From contig JAJRXD010000151.1 in the NCBI GenBank assembly GCA_024276465.1, positions 1 to 38,363 on the forward strand: DNA of 38,363 bases. The letters run 5' to 3'. Every line of letters begins with the position of its first letter. The first letter of the stretch is position 1. The notes under the pieces are model-generated. The model searched no databases. It was not told the DNA's origin and worked only from the letters and a program-made list of their open reading frames with translations. Positions 12,707-32,201 of the stretch are shown in pieces. Position numbers and translations under genes: made by a program. The DNA comes from Deltaproteobacteria bacterium (GTDB lineage Bacteria > Desulfobacterota > WTBG01 > CAIYCZ01 > CAIRTM01).

Positions 12707-13996
12707 ATGAAACATAAAACATCTTATAAAATCCATTCCTTTTCAATAGATGCTGAAAAAGAAATAAAGCGCCTGAAAGCGCAGGTTGAACTGTTCTGGG
12801 ACAGGGAACTTGCATTTTATAAAACATTCGGTCTCAGTAACGGAATGAAAATTGTTGAATGCGGCTGCGGGCCGGGTTTTGCAGGACAAAAGCTTCATGC
12901 TGTTTTTCCTGATAGTCATGTAACAGCCTTTGAAATTGATCCTTTTCTGATGGAAGCAGCTAAAAGAAATGCTCGCCTGCTGGAGCTTGAAAGATATGAA
13001 GTAAGTGAAAGATCCATTATGGACACTGGCTTACCTGACAATACATTTGATTTTGCAGTAACACGTCTTGTTCTGGAACATCTGCCTGATCCAGTTGCTG
13101 CTGTAAAAGAGGTTTACAGAATTCTCAAACCCGGGCAAAAGGCTGTATTTATTGATAATGATTTTGAATTTCACATGAGAACCCATCCTGATATTCCTGA
13201 ACTGAGAGATTTATACAGCGCATATTGTGCTGCAAGGCAGAAACAGGGCGGAAACCCTAAAATCGGACGCGAGCTGCCGGGCATACTTAAGCTTGCCGGT
13301 TTTTCAAATATAGATCTGCGGGTTATGGAGGCCCACAGCCATGTCACAGGAGACGAAATATTTTTAAAATCCGAGGGATCCGGCATCCCTGCTCAGTTAG
13401 TCAAAGACGGATATTTGTCTAAGGAAACATATTCCAGAATAGCCCTTAAATGGAACAGATTATTAAAGATAGAAAATCATTCAATTTTCAGGCAATTATT
13501 TATCTGCGCGGGAGAAAAAAAGCCAGGCAATGATTCTACAGATAACAGGGTGGATCAGTCTGCTTTTCAATCACAGCCCGGGCATAATCAGGCTGAACAG
13601 CAGGAGATAAAACCGCCTGATGAGGGATGGACTTCAGACAAAAACAGAGTCTATGAGGCTCCTGTAACCCTGACAGAAAAAAAAGTAGCCGCAGTATGGC
13701 AGGAGATCCTGGGAATTGAAAGCATAGGGATAAATGAAAATTTTTTTGAAGCAGGTGGAAGCTCAGTCCACGCACCTGAAATTATTGAGCTTTTAGAAAA
13801 AAAATTCTCAAAAGAGCTGTCACTGGTTGATCTTTTTGATTATCCGACTATCGCTCTTTTTGCAAAAAAGCTTGCTCCCGGGGAACAGGTAAAAGAACAT
13901 CTTTCATCCTCACAAAGACAGGCAGCAAGACGCAATAAAGTTACAGAGCGACGAGAGATGATTCAAAAGCTCCGCAAACAAAAAACAGATTCATGA
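12707..13996 (+). CDS. Class I SAM methyltransferase fused to a carrier domain (MT-A)
   Basis: The protein is 429 residues from the ATG at 12707. An upstream in-frame ATG at 12668 would add 13 residues, but the paralogue at 23303 aligns from the very first residue with the 12707 start, so that start is preferred. Residues about 20-260 form a UbiE-like methyltransferase (motif I VECGCGPGFAG, then GLPDNTFDF, TRLVLEHLPDP, GNPKIGRELPGIL). Residues about 315-395 form a phosphopantetheine carrier with FFEAGGSS and the predicted attachment Ser353. A basic tail (RRNKVTERREMIQKLRKQK) follows and may dock to the next protein. It sits 13 nt upstream of the KS-AT-NRPS gene. The likely role is methylation of a carrier-bound intermediate; whether C-, N- or O-methylation is unknown. 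Confidence 0.85.
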   Translation: MKHKTSYKIHSFSIDAEKEIKRLKAQVELFWDRELAFYKTFGLSNGMKIVECGCGPGFAGQKLHAVFPDSHVTAFEIDPFLMEAAKRNARLLELERYEVSERSIMDTGLPDNTFDFAVTRLVLEHLPDPVAAVKEVYRILKPGQKAVFIDNDFEFHMRTHPDIPELRDLYSAYCAARQKQGGNPKIGRELPGILKLAGFSNIDLRVMEAHSHVTGDEIFLKSEGSGIPAQLVKDGYLSKETYSRIALKWNRLLKIENHSIFRQLFICAGEKKPGNDSTDNRVDQSAFQSQPGHNQAEQQEIKPPDEGWTSDKNRVYEAPVTLTEKKVAAVWQEILGIESIGINENFFEAGGSSVHAPEIIELLEKKFSKELSLVDLFDYPTIALFAKKLAPGEQVKEHLSSSQRQAARRNKVTERREMIQKLRKQKTDS

Positions 13997-14009
13997 TTAA
14001 AATTTTCCA

Positions 14010-17000
14010 ATGGAAAAAATTGCCATAATAGGAATGGCTGGACGTTTTCCAGGGGCAGGTAGCGTAGGACAGCTTTGGGAAAATGTTAAAAACAGTGTTG
14101 AGGCTTTAACAGAATTTTCTGACAAAGAGCTGCTGGAGTCCGGTGTTTCACAATCCCTGATTGATAACCCTGATTATGTTAAAAGCAGGTTTATTCTAAA
14201 AAATGCTGAAATGTTCGACGCAGCCTTCTTTGGAATGTCTCCACGGGAATCTGAATGCACTGACCCCCAGCATCGCATTTTTTTAGAAACTGCCTGGGAA
14301 GCACTTGAATCAGCAGGCTATGATCCGGAAGCATACAGCGGCTCCATAGGTGTTTTTGCCGGGTGCGGCATGAATCAGTATCTGCTGCAAAATCTAATTG
14401 CAAACCACCGTGCCCTGAATTCCATGAACGAAAGACAAACCCAGGTTTGCAGCGATAAAGATTTTCTATCAACGCGAGTTTCCTATAAGCTTAATTTAAA
14501 GGGGCCAAGCCTCGACATACAAACTGCATGCTCAACATCTCTGGTTGCTGTCCACATTGCCTGCCAGAACCTGCTTGATTATCAGTGCGACATGGCATTA
14601 AGCGGTGGTGCTAATGTGCAGCTGCCCCGCGTCGGAGGGTATCTTTACAGTGATGGAGATATGCGATCACCGGATGGACACTGCAGGGCCTTTGACGCTG
14701 CTGCGAATGGAACTGCTTTTGGAGATGGTGTGGGCATTGTTGTCCTGAAAAGACTTCAGGATGCACTTGAGGATCGTGATACAATCCTTGCTGTTATCAG
14801 TGGCACTGCCATAAACAATGACGGTGCACATAAAGCTGGATTTTCCGCTCCGAGCATTGATGGCCAGGCTACAGTTATTTCAATGGCACATGAAATGGCT
14901 GCTCTTGACCCTGAAGCAATTACCTGTATAGAGGCCCACGGCACAGGAACCGCACTTGGTGATCCAATTGAGATTGCTGCCCTGACAAAAGCATTTCGCA
15001 GATCTACAAATAAAAAAGGATATTGTGCCATTGGAACTGTCAAAGCCAATATCGGCCATCTTGATGCAGCTGCAGGTGTAGCCGGCTTAATAAAAACCGT
15101 ACTTTCCATTTACCATAAGCAGATACCGCCAAATATAAATTTCAACAACCCAAAACCTGAGCTCAGGCTTGAAGCAAGCCCATTCTATGTAAACAGAGAG
15201 ATTAAAGAATGGAAGGCAAACGCGCAGCCCAGGTGCGCCGGGGTGAGCAGTTTTGGCGTTGGGGGCACAAATGCCCATGCTGTTGTTGAAGAGGCTCCCA
15301 TGCCTGTCCCCGCTGACAGGGGGGGGGAATGGCAGCTTTTAACTTTTTCAGCCAGAACAGAGGTTTCTCTTGGAAAAGCCTCTGATAATCTTCTGGAACA
15401 CCTTGAACAAAACCAGGACATCATTCTTGCTGATGCTGCATACACGCTGCAAACAGGACGGCGTCATTTTGAGTACAGGTGCACTGTGCTCTGCACTGAC
15501 AGGGACAGTGCAATATCTGCAATAAAAAACCGTGATGCAACCAGAGTACATACTGGCCAGGCTGTTTCCTCAAAAACCCCGAAAGTTTTTATGTTTACAG
15601 GCCAGGGCTCTCAGTATGCTGGTATGGGCCTTGAACTTTTTGAAAACGAAGCCTGCTTCAGAGATGTAATAGATTACTGCTCTGAGGTGCTCACGCCCCT
15701 GCTGAACATGGACTTGCGCAGCCTTATCTTTAAAAGCAAACCCATTGATAATAATTCCACAAATATTCTCAACCAGACTAATATAGCTCAGCCAGCACTC
15801 TTTATGATTGAATACGCACTTGCAAAACTGTGGAAAAAACATGGTGTAAAACCGGATGCCATGATAGGTCACAGCATCGGAGAATACACAGCAGCATGTT
15901 TTTCAGGTGTATTTTCACTGGATGAGGCTTTAAAGCTGGTTGTGCTGAGAGGGGCTTTAATGCAGCAGCAGGCTTTCGGCTCAATGCTCAGCGTAGCCCT
16001 GTCTGAGGATTCAGTTCTGCCTTATTTAAATGATGACATTGAGATTGCAGCACTTAACAGTCCTGAATCTTCTGTATTATCCGGAGAAACTGAAAAAATT
16101 CAGTTATTAGAGCAGGTTCTAAAAAAAGATGGGATCAATTTTTTTCGGCTTCATACATCACATGCATTTCATTCCAGAATCATGGAGCCAGTACTTGAAC
16201 ATTTTGAAAGAGCCTTTGACAACATAAACCTGAAAAACCCTGAAATCCCTTTTATCTCAAACCTGACCGGTGACTGGATAACACCATCTCAGGCAACAAG
16301 CCCTGCTTACTGGGCAGATCATTTAAGAAAAACAGTCCGCTTTAAAGACGGGATCAAAAAACTTTTAAAAGATTCAAATCGGATTTTTATAGAGGCTGGT
16401 CCTGGAAACACCCTGTGCAGCCTGGTAAAACAGTCTGAAAGGTTTTTTAACAGCCATGATAATACCGGCAAAATTCATGTTATCCAGTCGCTTCGGCACC
16501 CCAGGCAGCAATTTTCTGACACTGGACTGTTTTTGCAATCCCTGGGCAAAGCCTGGCTTGCAGGAGCAAAAATCAACTGGCTGGATCTGTATAAAAATGA
16601 AATTCGCTACCGCATCCCTTTGCCAACCTATCCTTTTGAGCATAAAAGATTCTGGCTGGAGCCTGACAGCCTCATTAAAAAAAACAGATCATCACCCTGC
16701 AAAATTTCTAATGAGCAGACTTCTACTTCAAACGAGACATCCGGCAATGCTTTTACTCTATCTGCTGATGATTTGCAGTCTGGCGCTGAAAAAACCTGTA
16801 ATCACACTGTCCAGACTGTAACTTCTATCTGGCAGGATCTTTTGGGAATCAATAATATCGATTCAGACAGTAATTTTTTTGATCTTGGCGGAGATTCTGT
16901 ATGGGCATCCCAGGTGCTTTTACGAATAAGTGACAAAACAGGGATTACCCTTTCCCTGAAAGAGATGTTTGACAACCCGACAATAAACAGCCTTGCCAGG

Positions 17001-20000
17001 GTACTTAAAGCTAAATCAGATGATCATGAAAAACCTCAACCCGTTCCAATTCAGAGGATTAATCGCAAAAAAAAGCTTCCTCTTTCCCAGGCACAAAAAA
17101 GATTATGGTTTCTTTCACAGTTAGAGCCTGAAAATCCGGCATTCAACCTGGCCCTGGGCCTGCAGATAGAGGGGCCACTAAAAGCAGATCTGCTTTGCAA
17201 TGCCATTGATGCTGTTGTGCAGAGACATGAATCTCTCAGAACCACGTTCATTAACGACCAGGGCGATCCCAGGGCTGTTATAAACAATCACACGAGCATT
17301 ATGCTTAACAAAATTGATGCAACTGAGATGGGGCATGACGAAAAAGCATCTTTACAGATAATCAGGCAGGCTGCTGCCCGTCCATTTGATCTTGAGAAAG
17401 GCCCTCTATACCGCTGGTTTTTAGTGCACCTGAAAAAAGATTTCCACATTTTAGTTTATATTGTTCATCATATTGTGTTTGACGGCTGGTCTCTGGGCAT
17501 TGTTTTGAAGGAGATAGCTGCTCAATATGATGCACTGCAGCAGAGCAAAGAACCTCTTTTGCCGGAATTAAACATACAATATGTTGATTACTCTGCCTGG
17601 CATGAAGAATGGCTTAAAACCCGAAATTTAACTGGCCAGATGGAGTATTGGAAAAAACAGCTGGCAGGCGAGCTCCCTATAATGCAGCTTCCCTTTGACC
17701 GGCCCAGGCCAAAAATCCCTGACTATAAAGGTTCTCTCGAATTTTTCGAGCTGTCCGAAAACCTGTCAAATCAATTAAGGGTTCTTTCAAAACAGGAAGG
17801 TTCAACCTTTTTTATGATTTTTCTAACTGCATTCAAAATTCTGCTTTTCAGATATTCAGGCCAGGATGACATAATTACAGGGACACCTGTTGCTAACCGA
17901 AACCATGTCGAGTTTGAAAAGCTTGTCGGTCTGTTCATTAACATGCTGGTCCTGCGCTCTGATCTTTCAGGAAACCCTACATTTAAGGAATTACTGGCAC
18001 GAGTACGAAAAACATCCCTGGACGCTTTTTCCCATCAGACATTTCCTTTTGAGCAGCTGGTTGATCTCCTGAAACCATCTCGCGACATGAGTCATCACCC
18101 GCTGTATCAGGTGATGTTTGCGTTTCATAATTTTTCATTCCCACCTGTAGCACTGAAGGATGTTAAATTTCAAAATATCATAATAGACAGGGGCTCTTCC
18201 CAGGTAGATCTCTGGATGTATCTGTGGGAGGAGAATAATATTTTCAAAGGAGCTGTGGAATACAGCACTGAGCTGTTTGACCAGGCTACAATATCACGAA
18301 TGACCGGGCATTATTTGAATCTTTTAAACGCTGCAGCAGATGATCCCCTGCAAAAAATTGACAGCTGCCCCCTGCTGAATGAGAAGGAAAAAAAACATAT
18401 CCTTTTTGAGAGAAACAAAACTCAATTAGAGGTCCCTGAAACATCCAGCTTTCACCAGCTGTTTGAAAACCAGGCAAACCGCCTCCCGCACAATAATGCT
18501 GTAACTTTTGGAAACAGGGAGATTACATATCAGGAGCTTAATAAGCGCTCCAGCCAGCTTGCCAATTATCTTCGAGATCTGGGGGTGGGCACAAATACTC
18601 TAATTGGCATATATGTCGAACGGTCAATCGAAATGATCGTGGGAATCCTTGGAGTTTTAAAAGCAGGGGGTGCCTATGTTCCTCTGGATCCGACCTACCC
18701 ACAGGAACGAATTGCTTTTATAATTGAAGATACAGACATGCCGGTTATTTTAACCCTGGACCATATGGAAACTGCTCTTCCTGAAAACAGGTCAGCCATA
18801 CTTTGCCTTGATGCAGACTGGAATGAAATTGCCAGTGAAAAAGACAACAACCCCGAACATTCTACAAAAGGCAATAATCTGGCATATGTTATTTATACCT
18901 CAGGGTCAACAGGCAGGCCCAAAGGTGTGAAGGTACAGCATCGGGCAGTTGTCAATTTTTTATCCAGCATGAGGCAGGAGCCTGGTTTTGCTGAAGATGA
19001 TGTTATGCTGGCTGTAACAACGCTCTCTTTTGACATTCATGTGCTGGAAATCTTTCTGCCCCTTATCACAGGAGGCCGGGTTGTTATTGCTGATCGCGAA
19101 ACAGCCTCAGATGGCAGCCTGCTTCTCAGAGCCCTGCAGGACTCCCGGGCAACAGTCATGCAGGCCACGCCCGGCACCTGGCGGCTCCTGCTGGCAGCCG
19201 GCTGGCAAGGCACTCGGAATTTAAAGCTGCTTTGTGGAGGAGAAGCTTTCCCTCTGGACCTCTTAAAGGAGCTTCTTCCGCGTGCAGGAAGCGTATGGAA
19301 CATGTACGGCCCCACAGAGACAACTGTCTGGTCAACCTGCTTCCGCATCACAGACAGCCAAAGCCCCATTCTGATCGGACGCCCGATTGCCAACACGCAG
19401 GTTTATATTCTTGACCGCCTGATGCAGCCGGTACCTGTGGGGGTTCCCGGAGAGCTTTACATAGGGGGTAATGGCGTAACACCTGGCTATTTAAACCTTC
19501 CTGATCTGACGCAAAAGCAGTTTTTGCCTGATCCTTTCAGTCTGGATCAGGGGGCACGCCTCTACAAAACCGGTGATCTGGCCCGCTTCCGCCCTGATGG
19601 AAATCTTGAATATCTGAGCCGGATTGATACCCAGGTCAAAGTCAGGGGCTTCCGTATTGAGCTTGGAGAAATAGAGAGCGTTCTGAACGAGCACCCTTCA
19701 GTGGACAAATGCGCTGCAGCGGTCTGCGAAGAGCAGCCCGGGGATATGCGCATGGTTGCCTTCATTGTTCCAAAGGCAGGCATGGATCCAACAGCCTCAA
19801 ACCTGAGAAAGCACCTTCAAAACAGGCTTCCTGACTACATGATCCCCCAGCATTTTGTTCTGCTTGAGGAGCTGCCCCTGACCCCTGCCGGAAAGATCGA
19901 CCGTAAGAACCTTCCTGTAGCAGAAATCAGGGAATCCCCGGCACCTGCAGAGTATGCTGCGCCGCGAAATAAAACAGAAGAATTGCTCACAGGCATCTGG

Positions 20001-21014
20001 CAGAATATTACAGGCCTGAGTTGCATCGGGATCCACGATGATTTTTTTGATATTGGAGGTCATTCCCTGCTTGCTGTTCGATTGTTTTCTGCAATTGAAA
20101 AAAAGCTTGGTGTAAGGCTGCCCCTCGCACTGCTGTATCAGGCATCAACCATTGAACAGATGTCACAGTTTATAAAAGAGAAAAACTGTCAGGCTCCATG
20201 GTCGTCTCTTGTACCCATAAAGCCTGGTGGATCAAAGCCACCCCTCTTCCTTATACACGGTGCTGGCGGCAATGTTCTTCTCTACCGCCAGCTCGCTCAC
20301 CACCTTGGTTCAGATCAGCCAGTGTTCGGACTGCAGGCAAAAGGCCTTGACGGGAAAAAGCCGTTTCACACAAGCATTGAAGATATGGCTTCTGAATATA
20401 TTTCTGAAATACAAAACCTGCAGCCCCACGGACCCTATTTTCTCGCGGGCTACTGCATGGGTGGCACAATCGCCTATGAAATGGCCTGCCAGCTTGAAAA
20501 AAGCCACCACAAAACAGCACTGGTTGCAATGTTTGACACTTATAACGGGTGGGAAAAATCAAGTTTGCCCAAGCTGATTTATCATAACTGTCAGCGCATT
20601 GCATTTCACATCCTTAATTATAATATGATAGACAAAGCTGGCCGAAAAGCGTTTTTGAAAGAAAAAGCACTGGAATCAAAACGCAGGGTTTTTCTCAGCC
20701 TCGAAGTCAAACTTACGCAGCTGTTACATAAAGCAAAGCTTCGCTCCAGACACCCGCTTGTTATTATGGATCATATAAATGATGCTGCTGCTTATAACTA
20801 TTTTCCCAGGCCATACCCTGGGAAAATAGATGTTTTTAAAACTATTTCAGCATACTCGGGGTATGAGGACCCACTTCTTGGCTGGGGCAGCAATCTGACA
20901 GGCAGCATTGAAGTTCACCAGCTTAATGTATATCCAGCCGGGACTCTTAATGAGCCTTTTGTTGCTGAGCTTGCATCAAAGCTCAGAGACTGCCTGGATA
21001 GAGCCAGGTTATAA
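14010..21014 (+). CDS. Hybrid PKS-NRPS: KS-AT-ACP-C-A-PCP-TE
   Basis: The 2334-residue protein holds: KS (about 4-430; Cys174, His310 in HGTGT, His350 in NIGH), AT (about 525-850; GHSIGE with Ser622, HAFH at 718-721 as in malonyl-selective ATs), carrier (Ser963 in GGDS), C domain (about 1020-1450; HHIVFDG, His1154, Asp1158), A domain (about 1480-1960; YTSGSTGRPKG, GPTET), PCP (Ser2019 in GGHS) and TE (about 2063-2330; GYCMGG, Cys2149). No KR, DH or ER is present. By alignment to PheA I read the A-domain pocket as D-I-L-A-L-G-M-V-W plus the usual Lys, closest among remembered codes to glycine (DILQLGLIWK). The TE has Cys where Ser is usual, and Pro2309 where the catalytic His normally lies. 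The KS starts at residue 4 with no N-terminal docking coil. It should extend an acyl chain by malonyl and then an amino acid, leaving a beta-keto group. Confidence 0.92.
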   Translation: MEKIAIIGMAGRFPGAGSVGQLWENVKNSVEALTEFSDKELLESGVSQSLIDNPDYVKSRFILKNAEMFDAAFFGMSPRESECTDPQHRIFLETAWEALESAGYDPEAYSGSIGVFAGCGMNQYLLQNLIANHRALNSMNERQTQVCSDKDFLSTRVSYKLNLKGPSLDIQTACSTSLVAVHIACQNLLDYQCDMALSGGANVQLPRVGGYLYSDGDMRSPDGHCRAFDAAANGTAFGDGVGIVVLKRLQDALEDRDTILAVISGTAINNDGAHKAGFSAPSIDGQATVISMAHEMAALDPEAITCIEAHGTGTALGDPIEIAALTKAFRRSTNKKGYCAIGTVKANIGHLDAAAGVAGLIKTVLSIYHKQIPPNINFNNPKPELRLEASPFYVNREIKEWKANAQPRCAGVSSFGVGGTNAHAVVEEAPMPVPADRGGEWQLLTFSARTEVSLGKASDNLLEHLEQNQDIILADAAYTLQTGRRHFEYRCTVLCTDRDSAISAIKNRDATRVHTGQAVSSKTPKVFMFTGQGSQYAGMGLELFENEACFRDVIDYCSEVLTPLLNMDLRSLIFKSKPIDNNSTNILNQTNIAQPALFMIEYALAKLWKKHGVKPDAMIGHSIGEYTAACFSGVFSLDEALKLVVLRGALMQQQAFGSMLSVALSEDSVLPYLNDDIEIAALNSPESSVLSGETEKIQLLEQVLKKDGINFFRLHTSHAFHSRIMEPVLEHFERAFDNINLKNPEIPFISNLTGDWITPSQATSPAYWADHLRKTVRFKDGIKKLLKDSNRIFIEAGPGNTLCSLVKQSERFFNSHDNTGKIHVIQSLRHPRQQFSDTGLFLQSLGKAWLAGAKINWLDLYKNEIRYRIPLPTYPFEHKRFWLEPDSLIKKNRSSPCKISNEQTSTSNETSGNAFTLSADDLQSGAEKTCNHTVQTVTSIWQDLLGINNIDSDSNFFDLGGDSVWASQVLLRISDKTGITLSLKEMFDNPTINSLARVLKAKSDDHEKPQPVPIQRINRKKKLPLSQAQKRLWFLSQLEPENPAFNLALGLQIEGPLKADLLCNAIDAVVQRHESLRTTFINDQGDPRAVINNHTSIMLNKIDATEMGHDEKASLQIIRQAAARPFDLEKGPLYRWFLVHLKKDFHILVYIVHHIVFDGWSLGIVLKEIAAQYDALQQSKEPLLPELNIQYVDYSAWHEEWLKTRNLTGQMEYWKKQLAGELPIMQLPFDRPRPKIPDYKGSLEFFELSENLSNQLRVLSKQEGSTFFMIFLTAFKILLFRYSGQDDIITGTPVANRNHVEFEKLVGLFINMLVLRSDLSGNPTFKELLARVRKTSLDAFSHQTFPFEQLVDLLKPSRDMSHHPLYQVMFAFHNFSFPPVALKDVKFQNIIIDRGSSQVDLWMYLWEENNIFKGAVEYSTELFDQATISRMTGHYLNLLNAAADDPLQKIDSCPLLNEKEKKHILFERNKTQLEVPETSSFHQLFENQANRLPHNNAVTFGNREITYQELNKRSSQLANYLRDLGVGTNTLIGIYVERSIEMIVGILGVLKAGGAYVPLDPTYPQERIAFIIEDTDMPVILTLDHMETALPENRSAILCLDADWNEIASEKDNNPEHSTKGNNLAYVIYTSGSTGRPKGVKVQHRAVVNFLSSMRQEPGFAEDDVMLAVTTLSFDIHVLEIFLPLITGGRVVIADRETASDGSLLLRALQDSRATVMQATPGTWRLLLAAGWQGTRNLKLLCGGEAFPLDLLKELLPRAGSVWNMYGPTETTVWSTCFRITDSQSPILIGRPIANTQVYILDRLMQPVPVGVPGELYIGGNGVTPGYLNLPDLTQKQFLPDPFSLDQGARLYKTGDLARFRPDGNLEYLSRIDTQVKVRGFRIELGEIESVLNEHPSVDKCAAAVCEEQPGDMRMVAFIVPKAGMDPTASNLRKHLQNRLPDYMIPQHFVLLEELPLTPAGKIDRKNLPVAEIRESPAPAEYAAPRNKTEELLTGIWQNITGLSCIGIHDDFFDIGGHSLLAVRLFSAIEKKLGVRLPLALLYQASTIEQMSQFIKEKNCQAPWSSLVPIKPGGSKPPLFLIHGAGGNVLLYRQLAHHLGSDQPVFGLQAKGLDGKKPFHTSIEDMASEYISEIQNLQPHGPYFLAGYCMGGTIAYEMACQLEKSHHKTALVAMFDTYNGWEKSSLPKLIYHNCQRIAFHILNYNMIDKAGRKAFLKEKALESKRRVFLSLEVKLTQLLHKAKLRSRHPLVIMDHINDAAAYNYFPRPYPGKIDVFKTISAYSGYEDPLLGWGSNLTGSIEVHQLNVYPAGTLNEPFVAELASKLRDCLDRARL

Positions 21015-21270: not shown

Positions 21271-22638
21271 ATGCGAGTATTGCTGATTCAATCACATTTA
21301 GGCAGAAGGAGTTCTCCTGTCATTTTTCCCATAGGGCTCTGTTATGTTGCAACAGCCTTGACCAGGCAAACTGTAAAAATCCTGGATCTAAACCTGTGGG
21401 ACTTGTCTCATTCCTGTAAAATGCTTGAACAGTGCCTGCTGGAATTCAAGCCGGATATAGTAGGGGTTTCTATCAGGAATATTGATACCTGCATCAGGAC
21501 TGATGTTTTTTTGCATTTTCAAACAATTATACCAACGATCCAATTGATAAAAAAAACAGATCATAAGATCAGGATACTGGCTGGCGGACCTGGATTCACA
21601 ATGTTTGCACAGGATATAATGGAGCGGATTCCTGAAATAGATTTTGGAATTTATATGGAGGCAGATGAATCTGTTTCAGATCTGATAGAGAACCTTGATT
21701 CACCTGAGAACGTCAAAGGAGTTTTTTTCCGCAAAGATAAAAGCATACATTTTACAGGCTTAAGAAACCTGCCTGATTTTGAAAATCTCCCCATGCCCGG
21801 AAGAGACGCTGATTTGATTGATATTAAGCCCTACATTGCAGCTGACTCCGGCAGCATCGGCATTCAGACCAAGCGTGGCTGCGTGCTGAAATGCACATAC
21901 TGTAACTACCCATTTTTAAGTGGCAACCAATTGCGGCTCAGACCACCCAAAAATGTTGTTGATGAAATAGAATACCTTATGGGTTTAGGGGTAAAATCAT
22001 TTTCTTTTGTAGATAATATTTTTAATGTTCCATTGAGTCATTCCATGGAGATCTGCAGGGAAATTGTCAGAAGAGATCTTGATGTAAAATGGTGTGCCTG
22101 GTATGAAATAAAAAATGCAACAGAGGAGCTTTTGAGCCTTGCAAAAAAGGCGGGCTGCTACCAGATGGAATTTTCGCCGGATGCAGCCACAAACAGGGGG
22201 CTGTCAAGCCTGAACAAGGGTATTAGCGTAAAAGATATTAAAAAGGTTCAAAAAATCATAAGAGGTATGAGTGGCATTAAAGCAAAATACAACTTTTTTT
22301 TCTCACTGCCAGGAATAGGATTACAGGACAAGATTAAAACCCTGGCAGCCTTTTTTGGATTGTTAGTACGTCTGTTTTCAGGCAAAGGTGGGGGCGGGGG
22401 CAGAATAGGCTGGATTCGTATAGAGAAAGACACCCGGATATATAAAAGTGCTCTTGAAGAGGGGGTGCTTACAGAAAAAATCGATCTGATGCCAAACAGC
22501 AAAAAAGATTTGTTGAAATTATTTTATTTTAACAAACCTTATAAATATCTTGATTATTTTGTTTTATATTTTATGAAAATTACTGAACAGATCATTAAAC
22601 CAGCTGGTAAATTTTTACAATCCCTTCTTCGGTCATAA
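21271..22638 (+). CDS. B12-binding-type radical SAM enzyme
   Basis: The 455-residue protein has an N-terminal Rossmann-like B12-binding-type domain (about 1-140: MRVLLIQ, FKPDIVGVSIRN, ILAGGPGFT), though no DxHxxG is evident. A radical SAM core follows with CVLKCTYC (Cys204, Cys208, Cys211) for the 4Fe-4S cluster, and then TIM-barrel strands (FSFVDNIFN, YQMEFSPDAAT, KYNFFFSLPGIG). Members of this broad family catalyse methylations at unactivated carbons, ring contractions, cyclisations or epimerisations. It is preceded by AAGGAC at a suitable distance and by a TTTTGACAATA element. Its position between the two halves of the PKS/NRPS locus points to tailoring of the product. A polyglycine patch (KGGGGGR) near residue 374 is unusual. 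Confidence 0.85.
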   Translation: MRVLLIQSHLGRRSSPVIFPIGLCYVATALTRQTVKILDLNLWDLSHSCKMLEQCLLEFKPDIVGVSIRNIDTCIRTDVFLHFQTIIPTIQLIKKTDHKIRILAGGPGFTMFAQDIMERIPEIDFGIYMEADESVSDLIENLDSPENVKGVFFRKDKSIHFTGLRNLPDFENLPMPGRDADLIDIKPYIAADSGSIGIQTKRGCVLKCTYCNYPFLSGNQLRLRPPKNVVDEIEYLMGLGVKSFSFVDNIFNVPLSHSMEICREIVRRDLDVKWCAWYEIKNATEELLSLAKKAGCYQMEFSPDAATNRGLSSLNKGISVKDIKKVQKIIRGMSGIKAKYNFFFSLPGIGLQDKIKTLAAFFGLLVRLFSGKGGGGGRIGWIRIEKDTRIYKSALEEGVLTEKIDLMPNSKKDLLKLFYFNKPYKYLDYFVLYFMKITEQIIKPAGKFLQSLLRS

Positions 22639-23302: not shown

Positions 23303-24547
23303 ATGGAACAAACCGGATCATACCAGCTCCAGACCTTTACAGCTAATGCCGGCAGCGAGGTCAAGCGATTAAAAGCCCAGGTGGATCTCTTCTGGAAAAA
23401 AGAGATCAAATTCTACCGCATGTTTGGCCTTAAAGATTCCATGACTGTTCTGGAATGCGGAAGCGGCCCTGGATATCTAATTGAAAACCTTTCAGCTGAA
23501 TTCCCGAACAGCAGCTTTACTGCCCTTGAAGTGGATTCTTATCTGTTCGATATATTGAAGCAAAACGCTGCCATGAATGGTCAGAAACGCTATGATGTCA
23601 TTCAGCAATCCATCATGAGCACCGGCCTTCCGGACAACACCTATGACTTTGTAATCACCCGTCTGGTGCTTGAGCACCTGCCGGATCCGATTGGCGCGGC
23701 AAGGGAACTTTACAGAGTCCTGAAGACTGGTGGCAAAGCAGTATTTGTAGCCAATGACTTTGACTTTCATTTAAGAACCTGTCCTGATATCCCTGAGCTG
23801 AAAAAACTCTACGATGCATATTGCCGCTCCAGGCAGGCCGGGGGCGGCAACCCTAAAATCGGACGTGAACTGCCGGGAATCCTCAAGCAGGCAGGATTTG
23901 TTAATATTGATATGGAGATAGCATGCGCCCACAGCGAAATAACCGGAGACAGGCTGTTTCTGGAATCTGAAGGCATTGGCATATCATCACAGCTTGTAAA
24001 GGAGGGCTATTTGACACGCGAAGCCCTGGATGAAATTGCTGTTCAGTGGCATGCGCTGCTGGGCAGTGACAACCATGCTTTTTACAGGCAGATTTTCATG
24101 GCAGTTGGTGAGAAAAACCCCCGGGCCATGCCGAAAAATTTTATTAAAAAACCTGAACAATCAGTTAGACACAATTACAATAAATCTCTTGCTGCTGATA
24201 TTAAAACCATTGAACAACCCCGAAAACTTGAGCTGATTGAAAAATATTTGTGCGAGCAGGTTGCAGGTGCTCTGGATGTTGAGGTGTCCGGGCTCAGGTC
24301 TGACCTTTCGCTTATAGACCAGGGCTTTGATTCCCTGTCAGCTGTTGAGCTGAAAAATATTATCAAGTCAGAGACCGGGGCAGATATTTCAGTTGCTGAA
24401 TTCTTTGAAGGTCGCTGCATTAAAGATATATCCAGGCTTCTGCTTGACAGCCTGATGAAAAACAACAAGAAAACAGAGCGCATTTCAGCTGATTCCAGAA
24501 ACAATCATGCCCGGAAAGAAAAAAAAGATTCTGATATCTGGGAATAA
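23303..24547 (+). CDS. Class I SAM methyltransferase fused to a carrier domain (MT-B)
   Basis: The 414-residue protein is a paralogue of MT-A: motif I VLECGSGPGYL, GLPDNTYDF, TRLVLEHLPDP, GNPKIGRELPGIL. The methyltransferase part runs through about residue 265. The C-terminal carrier (about 310-385) differs from MT-A's: it carries GFDSLSAVEL with attachment Ser344, a PKS-type ACP signature, rather than an NRPS-like GGxS. A charged, mostly disordered linker separates the domains. The stop is 8 nt from the next start, with AAGGGGA in between, so it is cotranscribed and translationally close to the C-FkbH gene. It probably methylates a carrier-bound acyl intermediate, or presents a starter for the second half-cluster. 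Confidence 0.85.
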   Translation: MEQTGSYQLQTFTANAGSEVKRLKAQVDLFWKKEIKFYRMFGLKDSMTVLECGSGPGYLIENLSAEFPNSSFTALEVDSYLFDILKQNAAMNGQKRYDVIQQSIMSTGLPDNTYDFVITRLVLEHLPDPIGAARELYRVLKTGGKAVFVANDFDFHLRTCPDIPELKKLYDAYCRSRQAGGGNPKIGRELPGILKQAGFVNIDMEIACAHSEITGDRLFLESEGIGISSQLVKEGYLTREALDEIAVQWHALLGSDNHAFYRQIFMAVGEKNPRAMPKNFIKKPEQSVRHNYNKSLAADIKTIEQPRKLELIEKYLCEQVAGALDVEVSGLRSDLSLIDQGFDSLSAVELKNIIKSETGADISVAEFFEGRCIKDISRLLLDSLMKNNKKTERISADSRNNHARKEKKDSDIWE

Positions 24548-24555
24548 GGGGAAAT

Positions 24556-27500
24556 ATGAAGGCTGCGGATATTATCACTGTTGCCAGTGCAAACCAGATA
24601 GAGCTTTGGGTCGAAAGCAGCAGCCTTAAGTTCCGGGCTCCTAAAGGTGCTTTGACGCCGGAACTGCAAAAACTGTTCAGGGATAACAGGGACAGCCTGA
24701 TTGCAGAGCTGACGAAACCGGCACAGGCAGTAAAAGCCCGAATACCTTTATCCTGTAATCAGCAGTCACTGTGGTTCCTCCATCAAATGGCACCTGAATC
24801 CCCGGCCTACAATGTTGCTGCCGCCTGTCAGGTCCTGTCCCCTGTAAATGCCGATGCTGTTAAATTTGCTCTGAAAAGCCTTGTTTCCAGGCACCCAATA
24901 CTCAGAACCACCTATACTCTTTCAGAGGAAAGCAAAACAGTATTCCAGGAGGTCCACAGCACAAAAGATATTGCCTTTGAGCACATTGACGCTGCTGCCT
25001 GGGATGACATTGAGCTGAACAAAAGAGTTATTGCCAGTTATAAAAAACCATTTGACCTGACAGCAGGACCCGTATTGCGGTTTCAGATTTTCAGCCGCAA
25101 TAATAATAATCACCTTTTTCTTATTACCCTGCACCACATTGCCTGCGATGCTCATTCCATACATATTCTGCTTGAAGATTTTATCTCTTTTTATGAAGCC
25201 GGCCCGGGCAAAACAGCTGTTCATCCTGAGCCAGTTTCATGCAAATATACTGATTATATCAGCCATCAGGCTGAAATGCTGAGGGGCCCTCAAGGTGCCC
25301 GCCTTCTGAATTACTGGAAAAAGAAGCTGCACGAAGCACCAGCCAGCCTTGATATGCCACTTGATCATAAAAGGCCTTCAGTACAAAGCCATAACGGATC
25401 TTCAGTCTGTTTTAACATTGAAGGCACGCAGTATGACAAGGTAAAAGAGTGTGCAAAAACCTGCAACACAACAGTATATGCCCTGCTGCTGTCTGTGTTT
25501 CAGCTGCTTCTGTCAAGGATGTCAGGGCAGAAAGATATCTGCATCGGCACACCTGTTGCCTGCCGCACAAGAAAGGAATATCAAAATGTTTGCGGATATT
25601 TTGTCAACCCTGTTGTCATTCGCACCAGGGTCGATCTGTCAATGACATTCAGAGAATATCTTGGCCATACCAGCAAAACAGTCTTTGAATCCTTAGACTA
25701 CCAGGAATATCCTTTTGCACTGCTTGTAGAAAATCTTGAAATCAGCCGCCAGCCCGGCACTGCCCCTGTTTTTCAGGTTATGTTTAACATGCTTAAGCGC
25801 AGGATGCTCGGCGCTGCAGCAGACTTTTTATGCCCTTCAAACAGTAACAGCCCTGTGGCATTTGGCCCGCTCAAAATCCTTCCCTACCCTGTTCACCAGC
25901 AGGAGGGCCAGTACGATATGACTCTTGAAATAATTGACACTGAAAAATATCTTTTTTCTGTTTTAAAGTACTGCACGGATATTTTCACTTCTGAAACAGC
26001 TTACAGGATTGTCAGCGACTACAGGTTAATCCTTTCCCGAATTCTTGAACATCCGGATGAGAAGGTTTCTGTTTTTGTCAGCCAGTCTGACAATTTCAAA
26101 ACCAGCCCTCCTCCTGTCAAAAAAACCTTGGCAATTGCTGCAACCTTTACTGCCGAGCCAGTAGCACCTGCCCTCAGCTTCTGGACAGAAAAACTTGCCA
26201 TTAATACTGAAATAGTATTTTCCCGGTACAGCCAGGTGTTCCAGCAGCTGCTGGACCCTGCCGGCATCTTCTCAAAAAACAGTAATGGTATAAATATTAT
26301 TCTTGTTCGCCTTGACGACTGGATGCAAACCAGATCTTCTGAGCCAGGCAGTGCTGAATGTATCTCTGAGGCAGGTATTAAAAGCATAGGACACAATGCT
26401 CATGAATTCCTGCATGCAGTTGAATCAGCATCAAAAAAAATGACGGCTCCACTTTTAATTCTGTTTTGCCCACCCTCGCCAGAACGTATGCTTGTTAAAG
26501 CTTATCAGTCAGCTGTCAGCAGGATTGAAAATGAATTGTGCCGGGATTTAAGCTCCATAAATGGTGTGTTCCCGGTCCCGGGCTCTGAAATCCTTGAGAC
26601 CTGTCCGGTTGACGAATATTACGAGCCTCTGGGGGAAAAAATCGGTCATATCCCCTATACAGATCAGTTCTTTGTCTCTGCTGCAACCCTGATAGCGAGA
26701 AAAGCTTTCACTGTTTTCAGCGAGCCCTGTAAAGCAATTGTCCTTGACTGCGACCAGACACTCTGGAGCGGGGTTGTCGCAGAGGATGGTGCACTGGGGG
26801 TCACAGTAGACAGGGACAGGAGATGGTTCCAGAAATTTATCTTATCACAGCACAATGCCGGCAGGCTGATCTGTATCTGCTCTAAGAACAATGCTGCTGA
26901 TGTACATGAGGTTTTTGACACTCACCCGGACATGATCCTGAAGCGATCTCACCTGGCAGCAGCAAAGATCAACTGGTCCCACAAATCAGTTAACTTGAGA
27001 GCTCTTTCAAAAGAACTGAATATCGGCCTTGACAGCATAATATTTATTGATGACAGCCCTTTGGAATGCGCTGAGGTCGAGGCAGGCTGTCCCGGAGTTT
27101 TTACAGTTCAGATGCCGGAATCTGATGTTGACATTAAAAAATTTTTTAAAAACCTGTGGATTTTTGATCACCTGAAAATTACCAGAGAAGACACAATACG
27201 ATCTGAGTATTATAAAAACTCTCAGGAGCGCAAGCAGTTCCTGAATGAGACCCTGTCTTTTGCTGATTTTATAAACAGGCTTGAGCTGGATATCAGGATT
27301 TCCGAGCTTCAGAAATCCGATATCCCAAGGGTTTCCCAGCTTACCCTGAGGACCAACCAGTTTAATCTCAGGACAATAAGGCGCAATGAAAACCAGATTG
27401 AATCTCTTTGCCGCCAGGAATCAATAGTGTCCCGCGTTGTGAATGTAAGGGATCGATTTGGTGATTACGGGCTTGTAGGGGTAATTATTGCTGAAAAAAA

Positions 27501-28320
27501 ATCAGGTCATCTTGATGTTGATACTTTTCTCCTGAGCTGCAGGGCCCTGGGACGAGGGGTTGAGCACTGCATGCTGGCCCATATTGGAAAAATCGCCCTG
27601 CAGGAAAACCTTGATCAAGTATGCCTGCATTACAGGACAACAGAAAGGAATCAGCCTGTCAGAAATTTTTTAGATGAAGTCGCACAAAATTTTAAAACCA
27701 CAAAACATGACGGCCTTCTCTATGAAATACCTTCCCCTGCAGCTGAAAAAACAGTTTTCAGGCCAAAAGAATCAGCGCCTGATACAGCAGCCCCTGAAAG
27801 CAAAGATCCGGCATACAACGCTGGTTCCAGGGATTCAGACAGAACATCCCGGCGTGCTTTTATGATTGAAATTGCGACCAGTCTGTTTGATGTGAAGAGG
27901 ATTCAAAGCCGTATCACATTAGAAACCTCAAACTTGAAAAATTGCCATAAAAAAACAGCTGGGTCCGTCCCTGGCAGAGTGCTTCAAAACAAGACCGAAT
28001 CCCGAATTGCAGAGGTCTGGAAAAAATACCTTAATCTGGATCTGATCAGTGCTGATGCCAGTTTTTTTGACCTCGGCGGCCATTCAACACTGATTCCTCA
28101 AATTGTTATTGACCTGATAAAGATATTCAATACTGACATTACCATTGTGGATATGTTTCAATATCCAACAATTACTGCGCTTGCCAGGCACATTAATAAC
28201 AATGCTGCACCGTCCCCTGATAAAGAAAAGGAAAAAGTCAGGATGCAAAAATCAGCAATCAACCGGCAAAAGCTCCGGACAGTAATGCTAAGGGCCAGAA
28301 TGCAAAGAAAACAATTATGA
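24556..28320 (+). CDS. TubC-docking / condensation / FkbH-like HAD / carrier protein
   Basis: The 1254-residue protein starts with a TubC_N-type docking domain (about 1-58: ANQIELWVESSSLKFRAPKG). A condensation domain follows (about 70-500: LSCNQQSLWFLHQMAPESPAYN, active site His193-His194-I-A-C-Asp198-Ala199, so the usual DG is DA). Next is an FkbH/HAD-IIIC region (about 523-1080) with D731-C-D733-Q-T-LW, FIDDSPLECAEVEAGCPG, the TLRTNQFNLRTIRR motif and a GNAT-like tail. The C-terminal carrier has Ser1177 in GGHS, followed by a basic tail. There is no adenylation domain. FkbH relatives make glyceryl-carrier units from 1,3-bisphosphoglycerate in some pathways; for the NRPS-fused subfamily with DCDQT the reaction is not known to me. 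The stop overlaps the next start as ATGA. Confidence 0.88.
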   Translation: MKAADIITVASANQIELWVESSSLKFRAPKGALTPELQKLFRDNRDSLIAELTKPAQAVKARIPLSCNQQSLWFLHQMAPESPAYNVAAACQVLSPVNADAVKFALKSLVSRHPILRTTYTLSEESKTVFQEVHSTKDIAFEHIDAAAWDDIELNKRVIASYKKPFDLTAGPVLRFQIFSRNNNNHLFLITLHHIACDAHSIHILLEDFISFYEAGPGKTAVHPEPVSCKYTDYISHQAEMLRGPQGARLLNYWKKKLHEAPASLDMPLDHKRPSVQSHNGSSVCFNIEGTQYDKVKECAKTCNTTVYALLLSVFQLLLSRMSGQKDICIGTPVACRTRKEYQNVCGYFVNPVVIRTRVDLSMTFREYLGHTSKTVFESLDYQEYPFALLVENLEISRQPGTAPVFQVMFNMLKRRMLGAAADFLCPSNSNSPVAFGPLKILPYPVHQQEGQYDMTLEIIDTEKYLFSVLKYCTDIFTSETAYRIVSDYRLILSRILEHPDEKVSVFVSQSDNFKTSPPPVKKTLAIAATFTAEPVAPALSFWTEKLAINTEIVFSRYSQVFQQLLDPAGIFSKNSNGINIILVRLDDWMQTRSSEPGSAECISEAGIKSIGHNAHEFLHAVESASKKMTAPLLILFCPPSPERMLVKAYQSAVSRIENELCRDLSSINGVFPVPGSEILETCPVDEYYEPLGEKIGHIPYTDQFFVSAATLIARKAFTVFSEPCKAIVLDCDQTLWSGVVAEDGALGVTVDRDRRWFQKFILSQHNAGRLICICSKNNAADVHEVFDTHPDMILKRSHLAAAKINWSHKSVNLRALSKELNIGLDSIIFIDDSPLECAEVEAGCPGVFTVQMPESDVDIKKFFKNLWIFDHLKITREDTIRSEYYKNSQERKQFLNETLSFADFINRLELDIRISELQKSDIPRVSQLTLRTNQFNLRTIRRNENQIESLCRQESIVSRVVNVRDRFGDYGLVGVIIAEKKSGHLDVDTFLLSCRALGRGVEHCMLAHIGKIALQENLDQVCLHYRTTERNQPVRNFLDEVAQNFKTTKHDGLLYEIPSPAAEKTVFRPKESAPDTAAPESKDPAYNAGSRDSDRTSRRAFMIEIATSLFDVKRIQSRITLETSNLKNCHKKTAGSVPGRVLQNKTESRIAEVWKKYLNLDLISADASFFDLGGHSTLIPQIVIDLIKIFNTDITIVDMFQYPTITALARHINNNAAPSPDKEKEKVRMQKSAINRQKLRTVMLRARMQRKQL

Positions 28321-31300
28321 ACCAGATTGTTAACAGCACAGAAGATGCTCTTGACGGGATTGCCATAGTCGGCCTTGCCAGCCGTTTCCCTGGCTCTGAT
28401 AATACGGAAAAATTCTGGGAAAATCTTGTCAATGGTGTTGATTCAATTACAACATATACTGATGAAGAGTGCCTGCGCTCCGGTGTTCCGGAATACATCC
28501 TCAACAACTCAGGGTTTGTGAAAAGAGGCGGAACAATGCATGGCCCGGAGCTTTTTGATGCTGCCTTTTTCGGCTACAGCCCTGGCGAAGCCCGCCACAT
28601 CGACCCGCAGCAGCGCATTTTCCTTGAGTGCGCATGGGAGGCAATAGAGAGTGCTGGATATGATCCTGAAAAATATGAAGGCACCATTGGCGTATATGCA
28701 GGCTGCGGTATTAACAACTATCTTCTTAAAAACCTTCTCTCAACATCACCCCAGATGGAATCTGTTGTTAATCCCATGATATTCATCGGCAATGACAAGG
28801 ATTTCCTGACCACCCGCGTTTCATACAAGCTCAATCTGACCGGCCCGAGCATTGTCATACAGACAGCCTGCTCAACAGGACTTGTTGCGATTCAGCTGGC
28901 ATGTCAGGGTCTTCTGACATATCAGTGTGACATGGCCCTGGGCGGGGCAGTTTCTCTTCAAACTCCCCGAATGAAAGGTTACCTGTACACAAAAGGCCAG
29001 ATACTGTCATCAGATGGATACTGCCGTGCTTTTGATAAAGATGCCTCCGGAACCATCTTTGGCGAGGGCGTTGGCATTGTTGTGCTTAAACGGCTTGAGG
29101 ATGCCCTGTCTGACAGGGACACCATCTATGCTGTTATAAGGGGAATCGCTGTAAACAACGACGGTGCAGACAAGGTCGGCTACACAGCCCCGGGCGTTGA
29201 GGGTCAGGCAGCAGTAATTGCAACAGCTCAGGCCATGTCAGGTGTTACAGCTGATGAGATCAGCTATGTAGAGGCTCACGGAACCGGAACTCCCCTTGGT
29301 GACCCTGTAGAAATTTCAGCCCTGACCAGAGCTTTCCGTGAAACCACAGACAATACAGGATATTGCGCAATCGGATCAGTTAAACCTAATATCGGCCATC
29401 TTGATGTTGCTGCTGGAATCGCGGGGCTCATTAAGGTCGCCCTTGCTTTGAAAAACAATAAAATTCCACCATCTATTTACTTTCGCGAACCAAACCCGGA
29501 GCTTAAACTCAAAAGCAGCCCGTTTTATGTAAATGACAGGCTGACAGAATGGACGGGCAACGGCAAGCCGCGATTTGCAGGCATAAGCGCTTTTGGCATG
29601 GGCGGAACAAATGCCCACGCTGTTCTTTCTGAAGCCCCGCATTATGATACATATATCTCTGCACGCCCCTGTTCCATTTTACTGCTTTCAGCAAAAACAG
29701 AAAGCGGCCTTGAAAAAGCAACCAGGAATTTATCTTCCTTTTTCAGGCGCCATCCTGAAACAAATCTCTCTGACGCTGCGTTTACGCTCCAGGTCGGCCG
29801 CCGGCATTTCAAGCACCGTCGCTTTATTGTCTGTGACCTGATTGAAACTGCGATTAAATATTTAGATGAGCCAGACGCAAAGCAGGCATGCACCGGGGTT
29901 GTGGAGCAGCCTGACCGCAGGGTTGTTTTCATGTTTACCGGCCAGGGCTCCCAGTATGTTAACATGGGAAAGGAGCTTTATGAAAAACTGCCTTCTTTCC
30001 AGAAAGACCTTGATCACTGTGCTGCTGTACTGAAGCCGTTTCTAAACCTTGACCTGCGCAATCTCATCTACCCGGATGAGACAGGCATGGACAAAGCAAA
30101 AGACCTTTTGAACGAAACATACATTACCCAGCCAGCTCTTTTTACAATTGAGTACTGCCTTGCAAAGTACTGGATGAGCATCGGCATTGTACCAATCTCA
30201 ATGATCGGACACAGCATCGGTGAATTCGTCGCAGCCTGCCTTGCAGGCGTTTTTAACCTTGAGGACGCTCTTTCGCTTGTTGCCCTTCGCGGCAAACTGA
30301 TGCAGGAGCAGGAGCGCGGGTCAATGCTTGCTGTATCACTCCCTGAAAACAGGCTGCAACCCCTGCTCAATGATGAACTTTGCATCTCTGTTATCAATGC
30401 CCCCTCACAGTGCGTAGTGTCAGGCTCAGATGAAGCGATTGAAAAATTTCAGGCCCAGCTCAGGCAAGGGATACCGGGAAAAAGCACTGAAATACGCACG
30501 CAGAAGCTGCATACATCTCACGCGTTCCACTCAAAAATGATGCAGCCGGCTGTGGAACCCCTGATGAAATCAATCCTTAAAACAGATCTTCATCCCCCTT
30601 CCATACCCTTTGTTTCAAATATCAGCGGCACATGGATAACATCCGACCAGGCCACAGACCCGGCATACTGGGCAGATCACCTGAGAAAAACAGTCAGGTT
30701 TTCAGACGGAATTAAAACACTCATGGCAGACTCTGACAAAATCATGCTTGAAATCGGACCCGGCAGCACCCTTGCGTCACTTGCACGCCTTCATTTCAGT
30801 TCCGGCACTGACTGCGTTTCTCTGTCCTCACTTCGCAACCCTGAACAGCATGAGTCAGACTATGCATTTATAACATGCACCCTTGGACGACTCTGGATAG
30901 AGGGTGTTGAAATTGACTGGGCCCGCTATTACCATGATGAGCAGCGCAGACGAATTCCCCTTCCCTGCTATCCCTTTGAGCATAAAAAATACTGGGTCAA
31001 AGCCAAAAACATATCCGTCAACAGCAACGACACTGACTTTGATGATGAATGTGCGGAAGCAGAAGACAGATCCCTGCAAAACCAAAGTCAGAAAGCCCAG
31101 AACCCTCCCCATGACGATGTTGAAGCAGAGCTTGCCTCCATATGGGAAAAGGCTCTTGGAATCAAAAACATTCCGAGGGATGCCGACTTCTATGAGCTTG
31201 GAGGACACTCACTGCTGGCTGCTCAGATTTTTATGGACATTGAGACTGCTTTCGGCAAAAACATACCACTGTCAACCCTGTTTCAATCCCCAACAATTGC

Positions 31301-32201
31301 ACTCCTGGCTGATGTCCTGAAAGAGGATAACACCACATCGTTCTGGTCCTCACACCTTGTGCCGATCCGCAAAAACGGCACAAAGCGCCCGCTTTTCCTT
31401 GTGCACGGCGCAGAGGGCAATGTGCTGCTCTACCGCCTGCTGACACAGCACCTGGGTGATGATCAGCCAGTGTACGGCCTGCAGTCAGCCGGCCTTGACG
31501 GGCAGGAGAAATTCAATCCTGATTTCAAGCACGTTGCTGCAAAATATATTAAAGAGATTAAAACAGTGCAGCCCGAAGGGCCTTATCTGCTGGGGGGCTA
31601 CTGCCTGGGCGGAACAATTGCACTTGAAATGGCTCAGCAGCTGACAGCCAGTGGTGAAAAGGTCAATTTCCTCGGCATGATTGAGATTTATAATATTCAA
31701 TCCCTGAACTGGCCCCTGCCCTTTCACATCAGGGCCTTCAACAGCCTGCTGAATATCTGCTACCATGTTCTGAACCTTTTTTCATCAGAGAATAATATGA
31801 AGCTTGAATTTTTCAGGCAAAAGGCTCGGGTTGAGATAAGCCGCCTGAAGGTTTCGCTGAAAATAGCTCGTACCAGACTGCTGAAACTCCTTGGAATATC
31901 CCCGGAAGTTCCATATTACCACCTGAGGGTCGATGAGGCCTATGATCAGGCTCTGACCGAATATTATCCTGAAAAATATCCCGGAAGAATAACTCTTTTC
32001 GGAGCTAAAACCCTGCCTGCCGGGTTTACTGACCCGATATATTACGGATTTGGCGGGCTTGCTGAAAAAGGTGTTTGCCTGCAGATAATCCCTGCATATC
32101 CGAGAGGAACCCTGGTTGAACCTTATGTCAGGATCCTGGCAGAAAAGATTAACCAGTGCATTAAGCAATCAGAAGCAGACACACTGAAATCTCCAGACTA
32201 A
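28317..32201 (+). CDS. PKS module KS-AT-ACP-TE
   Basis: The 1294-residue protein has KS (about 13-440; Cys185 in ACSTG, His321 in HGTGT, His361 in NIGH), AT (about 535-860; GHSIGE with Ser633, HAFH at 735-738, malonyl-type), carrier (Ser965 in GGHS) and TE (about 1008-1285; GYCLGG with Cys1096). Again there is no KR, DH or ER, so a beta-keto product is expected before release. The TE resembles that of the 14010 protein: Cys nucleophile, and the YPxGTLxEP end with Pro1262 where His is usual. Its acid position reads MIEIYN (Glu) against MFDTYN in the other. ATGA overlap with the C-FkbH gene implies coupled translation. The 3' end overlaps, convergently, the open frame of the broken YdcF-like gene. 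Confidence 0.92.
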   Translation: MNQIVNSTEDALDGIAIVGLASRFPGSDNTEKFWENLVNGVDSITTYTDEECLRSGVPEYILNNSGFVKRGGTMHGPELFDAAFFGYSPGEARHIDPQQRIFLECAWEAIESAGYDPEKYEGTIGVYAGCGINNYLLKNLLSTSPQMESVVNPMIFIGNDKDFLTTRVSYKLNLTGPSIVIQTACSTGLVAIQLACQGLLTYQCDMALGGAVSLQTPRMKGYLYTKGQILSSDGYCRAFDKDASGTIFGEGVGIVVLKRLEDALSDRDTIYAVIRGIAVNNDGADKVGYTAPGVEGQAAVIATAQAMSGVTADEISYVEAHGTGTPLGDPVEISALTRAFRETTDNTGYCAIGSVKPNIGHLDVAAGIAGLIKVALALKNNKIPPSIYFREPNPELKLKSSPFYVNDRLTEWTGNGKPRFAGISAFGMGGTNAHAVLSEAPHYDTYISARPCSILLLSAKTESGLEKATRNLSSFFRRHPETNLSDAAFTLQVGRRHFKHRRFIVCDLIETAIKYLDEPDAKQACTGVVEQPDRRVVFMFTGQGSQYVNMGKELYEKLPSFQKDLDHCAAVLKPFLNLDLRNLIYPDETGMDKAKDLLNETYITQPALFTIEYCLAKYWMSIGIVPISMIGHSIGEFVAACLAGVFNLEDALSLVALRGKLMQEQERGSMLAVSLPENRLQPLLNDELCISVINAPSQCVVSGSDEAIEKFQAQLRQGIPGKSTEIRTQKLHTSHAFHSKMMQPAVEPLMKSILKTDLHPPSIPFVSNISGTWITSDQATDPAYWADHLRKTVRFSDGIKTLMADSDKIMLEIGPGSTLASLARLHFSSGTDCVSLSSLRNPEQHESDYAFITCTLGRLWIEGVEIDWARYYHDEQRRRIPLPCYPFEHKKYWVKAKNISVNSNDTDFDDECAEAEDRSLQNQSQKAQNPPHDDVEAELASIWEKALGIKNIPRDADFYELGGHSLLAAQIFMDIETAFGKNIPLSTLFQSPTIALLADVLKEDNTTSFWSSHLVPIRKNGTKRPLFLVHGAEGNVLLYRLLTQHLGDDQPVYGLQSAGLDGQEKFNPDFKHVAAKYIKEIKTVQPEGPYLLGGYCLGGTIALEMAQQLTASGEKVNFLGMIEIYNIQSLNWPLPFHIRAFNSLLNICYHVLNLFSSENNMKLEFFRQKARVEISRLKVSLKIARTRLLKLLGISPEVPYYHLRVDEAYDQALTEYYPEKYPGRITLFGAKTLPAGFTDPIYYGFGGLAEKGVCLQIIPAYPRGTLVEPYVRILAEKINQCIKQSEADTLKSPD

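Follow-up and report, generated by a model that had tools for sequence, protein, structure and literature searches.

Does a locus that holds two parallel assembly lines, each with its own release domain, make two products or one, and how is either line started? This question is raised by a contig from an uncultured bacterium (Deltaproteobacteria bacterium, assembly GCA_024276465.1, contig JAJRXD010000151.1), which was analyzed over its whole length of 38,363 nucleotides (the window). Between positions 12707 and 32201, five intact assembly-line proteins are encoded by open reading frames on the same strand. No contig end truncates the cluster, since the window is the whole contig and unrelated flanks of 12 kb and 6 kb surround the cluster. 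A preliminary description, made from the sequence, had assigned a domain order to each of the five proteins, with which Pfam and NCBIfam agree in every case; the radical SAM gene that it placed between two half-clusters is present, intact, and on the same strand. It had not mentioned the TubC_N docking domain that we found at the N-terminus of P0005. The order of genes and intergenic features is as follows:

12707 to 13996, plus strand: P0001, MT-PCP didomain; class I SAM methyltransferase (MT) and PCP-type carrier (GGSS), from Pfam/NCBIfam and motifs.
14010 to 21014, plus strand: P0002, 2334 aa, KS-AT(malonyl)-ACP-C-A-PCP-TE, from Pfam/NCBIfam and motifs.
21271 to 22638, plus strand: B12-binding-domain radical SAM protein of BzaD/ladderane-like class, with scores below cut-offs.
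22840 to 22885, no strand: terminator-like 20-bp perfect inverted repeat with a T-run; its core is a dispersed repeat also found at 35.2-38.2 kb.
23114 to 23142, plus strand: sigma-70-like promoter match TTTACG-17-TATAAT (10/12), upstream of the second half.
23303 to 24547, plus strand: P0004, MT-ACP didomain; ACP-type carrier (GFDSL).
24556 to 28320, plus strand: P0005, TubC_N docking-C-FkbH-PCP; the FkbH domain is of the HAD-IIIC, glyceryl-loading type.
28317 to 32201, plus strand: P0006, 1294 aa, KS-AT(malonyl)-ACP-TE, from Pfam/NCBIfam and motifs.

Every catalytic motif sought in the assembly-line proteins is present. Both KSs have Cys/His/His, both ATs carry GHSIG together with HAFH (a combination that we take to be malonyl type), and all six carrier serines are in place. 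The C domain of P0002 (C1) has HHxxxDG and that of P0005 (C2) HHxxxDA, with Gly changed to Ala; the FkbH domain has DxDxT and CSKN and matches TIGR01686 with 284.7 bits (cut-off 146.65). Both TEs use a cysteine nucleophile (GYCMGG in P0002, GYCLGG in P0006), and the radical SAM protein has CxxxCxxC. The A-domain code of P0002, read by eye from anchored motifs rather than predicted by software, is DILQLCMVWK; it is presumably glycine-like, resembling glycine codes (DILQLGLIWK). P0001 could start at a TTG at 12668, although the ATG at 12707 is likelier. Basic C-terminal tails occur on exactly the MT-PCP and FkbH-PCP proteins (P0001 and P0005), and that of P0001, read by eye, is of the kind found ahead of KS domains.

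The KS, integrated AT, carrier, C, and A domains, all with catalytic motifs, are those of a cis-AT hybrid type I PKS/NRPS, and a PPTase able to activate the carriers is encoded outside the window, where the genome (4.1 Mb, 181 contigs) has three ACPS/PPTase-family matches. The preliminary description had noted that no loading ligase, reductive domain, or PPTase lies here, and none was found in the window; for the PPTase this means little, because such enzymes are encoded elsewhere in the genome. Seven other AMP-binding enzymes are likewise encoded elsewhere. With P0005 as query, the cluster was the only one with C domains found in the genome. A test for dsrA, meant to place the organism, gave no match above cut-off. 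A separate contig carries two large KS-containing open frames (C67:14000-33500; 2777 and 1808 codons), perhaps a PUFA- or glycolipid-type synthase, the second of which also has a PPTase-family match (C67:20719-20958).

Sequence comparisons between the halves revealed that the proposed parallel between them is real for MT, KS, and TE: identities are 59% between the MTs, 58.5% between the KSs, 50% between the ATs, and 40% between the TEs, and each half opens with an MT-carrier protein and closes with its own TE. A tree of 44 KSs groups KS1 with KS2 as sisters (support 92/94) inside an 18-row clade (support 99/96), most members of which follow an NRPS carrier in hybrid lines. Among the loci compared, no other MT exceeds 40% identity to either window MT, and the best match of each TE is the other. 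The C domains share 30%; C1 has relatives of 44% elsewhere and is nearer to other C domains than to C2, and C2 reaches only about 30% with any C domain sampled. The two C domains, and likewise the two MT-linked carriers, are not paralogous as the MTs, KSs, and TEs are. Judged by these comparisons, the halves share an ancestral skeleton of MT-carrier, KS-AT-ACP, and TE that was duplicated long ago. One copy would then have acquired C-A-PCP between ACP and TE, and the other C-FkbH-PCP before the KS. A recent tandem duplication was considered and rejected, since DNA identity reaches no more than 66-78%, and this in patches, and cyanobacterial ATs are no more distant from the window ATs than these are from one another.

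Genes within each half are tightly spaced (13 bp in the first; 9 bp and a 4-bp overlap in the second), and the halves are set apart by 257 bp, the radical SAM gene, and a further 665 bp. Two transcription units are likely because the hairpin separates the halves, and two products from two lines are likely as well. The region holds six terminator-like sites against 2.2 expected, and seven promoter-like sites against 6.0 expected, a count that is not above chance and is uninformative. Because its core is a dispersed repeat of the contig, the hairpin may have come in by insertion instead of being a designed terminator. The right contig end (33000-38363) is full of copies of this non-coding repeat (TTCGTG-GC-TTCGTGGTG and GTCCCGATAAATCGGGAC hairpin units), and one palindromic copy lies at 22809-22886, between the halves. 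The preliminary description had left a choice between two products and two halves joined by transfer. The hairpin and the promoter-like site favor two products or transcription units, and transfer found no positive evidence. A single pathway with one product, in which the product of one line passes into the other, with TE1 working as a transferase or the MT-ACP taking over the chain, is in our judgment rather unlikely: the halves are adjacent, on the same strand, and related in their domains, no separate regulator or exporter accompanies each half, and the P0004 carrier has no obvious charging enzyme, but this reading must contend with the terminator-like hairpin and the 665-bp gap, with a complete, nucleophile-bearing TE in each half, and with the lack of a C domain at the junction that could accept from P0002 after its TE.

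We tentatively favor, at somewhat less than even confidence, two short cis-AT hybrid PKS/NRPS lines that derive from a common skeleton, were elaborated separately, and are each primed by an MT-carrier and released by their own TE. In the second line (23303-32201), an acyl starter on the MT-ACP would be modified by its own MT, while FkbH would put a glyceryl unit from 1,3-bisphosphoglycerate onto PCP2. The C domain, reached via the TubC_N dock, would move the acyl group to a glyceryl hydroxyl and form an ester, as in vioprolide; KS2-AT2 would add one unreduced malonyl unit, and TE2 would free a 3-oxo product, possibly by lactonization, to give an acyl-glyceryl polyketide. In the first line (12707-21014), the MT-PCP would donate to KS1, one malonyl unit would be added, C1-A1 would join a glycine-like amino acid, and TE1 would release a polyketide-(Gly-like) amide. 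Glyceryl loading by FkbH, predicted by analogy, is the best supported of these biochemical steps. The basic tails and the TubC_N domain of P0005 fit the order MT-PCP to KS1 and MT-ACP to C-FkbH-PCP to KS2, and the position of KS1 and KS2 in a clade that follows NRPS carriers fits donation from MT-PCP and FkbH-PCP. A methoxymalonyl-ACP pathway (FkbG-K) was rejected, as the two dehydrogenases expected beside FkbH and an MT were not found in the window.

In both lines, the MT-carriers would act as priming modules that replace a loading ligase. Most likely, the malonyl-specific ATs would charge them in trans, and the MTs would methylate an oxygen of the bound acyl group to give a methyl ester or enol ether. 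Two competing precedents bear on the MT-carriers and are counted for the two-line reading. LynB2, BarF, and JamN are free-standing MT-ACP didomains; the LynB2 carrier is proposed to receive its acyl group from an AT that sits on a different protein, and its MT O-methylates the bound 3-oxoacyl chain (PMC10127204). Art28 of the aurantinin pathway is a UbiE/BioC-like MT that methyl-esterifies malonyl-ACP as chain starter; its partner is the esterase Art9, which one cluster in the same paper also lacks (PMC8302727). We recognized no Art9-like esterase in the window besides the TE domains.

Sequence matches place the window MTs decisively with neither precedent. For the P0004 MT, the best NCBIfam match is BioC, at 40.7 bits against a cut-off of 185, and the P0001 MT matches BioC and UbiE, also far below cut-off; such matches are common to class I MTs. 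The StiE/StiD structures (6ecx/6ecu), which are solved relatives of the LynB2 MT, are not among the PDB matches listed for either MT. A structure of the MT-PCP predicted by AlphaFold from two sequences had a mean pLDDT of 33, too low for use. The weak BioC/UbiE matches and the missing StiE/StiD match among those listed count against the two-line reading, as do the absence of a FAAL or other loading enzyme adjoining the MT-carriers, the lack of a recognized Art9-like esterase, the HHxxxDA motif of C2, and its low identity to the C domains sampled. Furthermore, the closest assembly-line MT, in Blastocatellia AA13, is a separate post-TE gene that looks like a late-tailoring enzyme, and this too is counted against the two-line reading.

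A different role of the MT-carriers was weighed, in which FkbH or A1 loads glycerate or an amino acid onto them in trans and the MT then O- or N-methylates it, or in which they accept a 3-oxoacyl chain after KS-AT, as LynB2 does. We hold this to be unlikely, if a serious contender. The P0001 carrier is PCP-like, with NRPS PCPs as its best solved matches, KS1 lies within the hybrid KS clade, and examples exist of MT-ACP didomains acting after KS-AT (PMC10127204), all of which would suit such a role; it is opposed by the sequences of the MTs, which by the PDB matches listed fall outside the StiE/LynB2 class, and by the ACP that each KS-AT has in cis. The latter feature cuts two ways. It differs from the split LynB2 module and so counts against the two-line reading, and it is also why we prefer, with moderate confidence, a starter role over a LynB2-type role. 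A broader version, in which the MT-carrier is a general ligase-free priming module, loaded in trans by the AT of its own line, with an MT that makes an ester or ether of the acyl group, and duplicated to feed two different downstream lines, seems improbable to us; its products may be an N-acyl glycine-like acid and an acyl-glyceryl 3-oxo compound (ester or lactone), which would perhaps be combined or attached to exopolysaccharide.

The genes around the cluster suggest a further possibility. The left flank encodes polysaccharide export, Wzz/kinase, DegT, ATPase, metallo-hydrolase, and FemAB proteins and a secreted CTDC-repeat protein; the latter (9745-12459, plus strand; 904 aa) has five Dictyostelium-type CTDC repeats and an SdrD-B-like domain. 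The right flank contains decayed ORF pieces, a GxxExxY gene, a second FemAB gene, and a frameshifted AAA_14/DUF4143 gene. The pieces (32202-32824, minus strand) are two ORFs in different frames that by eye resemble a decayed small membrane-anchored gene (SanA/YdcF-like) and have no Pfam match. The AAA_14/DUF4143 ATPase gene lies in two frames (35689-36856, plus strand) and is probably a frameshifted pseudogene, with an intact relative at 4779-6095 (minus strand). The FemAB-like genes, of XrtA-associated type, lie on either side of the cluster (8383-9450, minus strand; 34025-35131, plus strand), are 26% identical to each other, and have XrtA-type scores below cut-off.

The radical SAM gene has relatives in nine other genomes of the phylum, the closest of which (45%) lies, in the one context opened, in a polysaccharide/lipid locus without PKS. 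We therefore no longer count it as a sure member of the pathway, and it may stand outside it. That the whole cluster serves the neighboring polysaccharide locus, with FkbH and TE delivering glyceryl or acyl groups to an exopolysaccharide or its lipid and no free small molecule being made, we regard as very improbable. Polysaccharide export (SLBB), Wzz/tyrosine kinase, and the two XrtA-type FemAB genes flank the cluster, an FkbH-PCP-TE protein of Aquisphaera (FkbH 44% identical) lies within an exosortase/polysaccharide locus, and the context of the radical SAM relative points the same way. Against this, the SLBB-Wzz-DegT block lies about 8 kb away from the assembly line, with unrelated genes in between, the window has no exosortase gene, and the families that mark an XrtA/PEP-CTERM locus (TIGR03027, TIGR03007, TIGR03019) all score below cut-off. 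We know of no full PKS modules in polysaccharide/exosortase loci, and the searchable papers yielded none that join exosortase, exopolysaccharide, polyketide synthase, and nonribosomal peptide.

Searches for relatives returned no close copy of the cluster in 395 genomes of the same phylum, 72,556 plasmids, and a limited scan of 84,980 genomes, and no match to its gene order in the genomes and plasmids searched. P0005 has no close match among 58 relatives or in a limited contig scan, whose hits were confined to ordinary NRPS loci and distantly related C-FkbH proteins. Niallia (KS-ACP-C-FkbH-PCP-reductase), a Saprospiraceae MAG (C-FkbH-reductase), and Rhodococcus encode C-FkbH proteins too. For P0004, the 395 phylum genomes contain only other short MTs, and two genomes of another phylum, that of AA13, have MTs of 33-35% identity. 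In AA13 the MT gene directly follows a gene that encodes C-A-carrier-TE, which shows that MTs of this family do occur together with NRPSs. Plasmid relatives are short MTs of about 30%, one of which, in Stanieria, lies outside any biosynthetic cluster. The MT-carrier proteins that seem to start each line had no close match in the collections searched.

The preliminary description had recognized no described pathway in this layout. This stands for the gene order within the collections searched, and less so for the parts, which are all of known module types; as far as the collections searched tell, their pairing is unreported. If the two-line reading is true, the cluster is a compact system that evolved by duplication of a whole skeleton and insertion of different NRPS-type modules. 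In that case it also brings an FkbH-glyceryl branch and, possibly, a way of starting without a ligase, by an MT fused to a carrier.

Within the phylum, KS-AT is matched best by a KS-AT-ACP-TE protein of 1285 aa, whose gene follows one for a C-PCP protein (G219 C5). This locus has the order of P0005-P0006 without FkbH, which is counted for the two-line reading, and its KS-AT is 48% identical to KS1-AT1; unlike the window, it has no MT-carrier. It also contains two sulfotransferases, a HemN-like radical SAM protein, an ABC exporter, an aldehyde oxidase, and a ligase (L096-L097). In Aquisphaera giovannonii (plasmid pOJF2_1; L057 17902-20985), FkbH is followed by a carrier and a related TE, but as a single short protein without KS or C; this assembly-line fragment may decorate polysaccharide. 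LynB2, BarF, and JamN share with the window a free-standing MT-carrier in a hybrid PKS/NRPS cluster, beside a malonyl-specific KS-AT. They differ in MT sequence class, judged by the PDB matches listed, and in a KS-AT that is split from its ACP, and the window has two MT-carrier copies with unlike carriers. Art28, a UbiE/BioC-like MT, has in common with the window MTs a proposed action on an ACP-bound starter, but it stands alone as a protein of a trans-AT cluster, whereas the window MTs are fused to carriers in a cis-AT cluster.

Finally, vioprolide and corramycin initiation uses FAAL-ACP-C-FkbH-T, and the order ACP-C-FkbH-T yields an acyl-glycerate ester (PMC8949500, PMC10099666). Similarly, P0005 represents a C-FkbH-T module after an ACP, in which FkbH replaces the A domain between C and carrier. 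Corramycin also has a radical SAM gene, with a proposed role in glycerate methylation; a link to the radical SAM gene of the window is uncertain. The systems differ on either side of this module: directly upstream, vioprolide and corramycin have FAAL-ACP and the window an MT-ACP without FAAL, and downstream a long NRPS follows in the former and one PKS module with a TE in the window.
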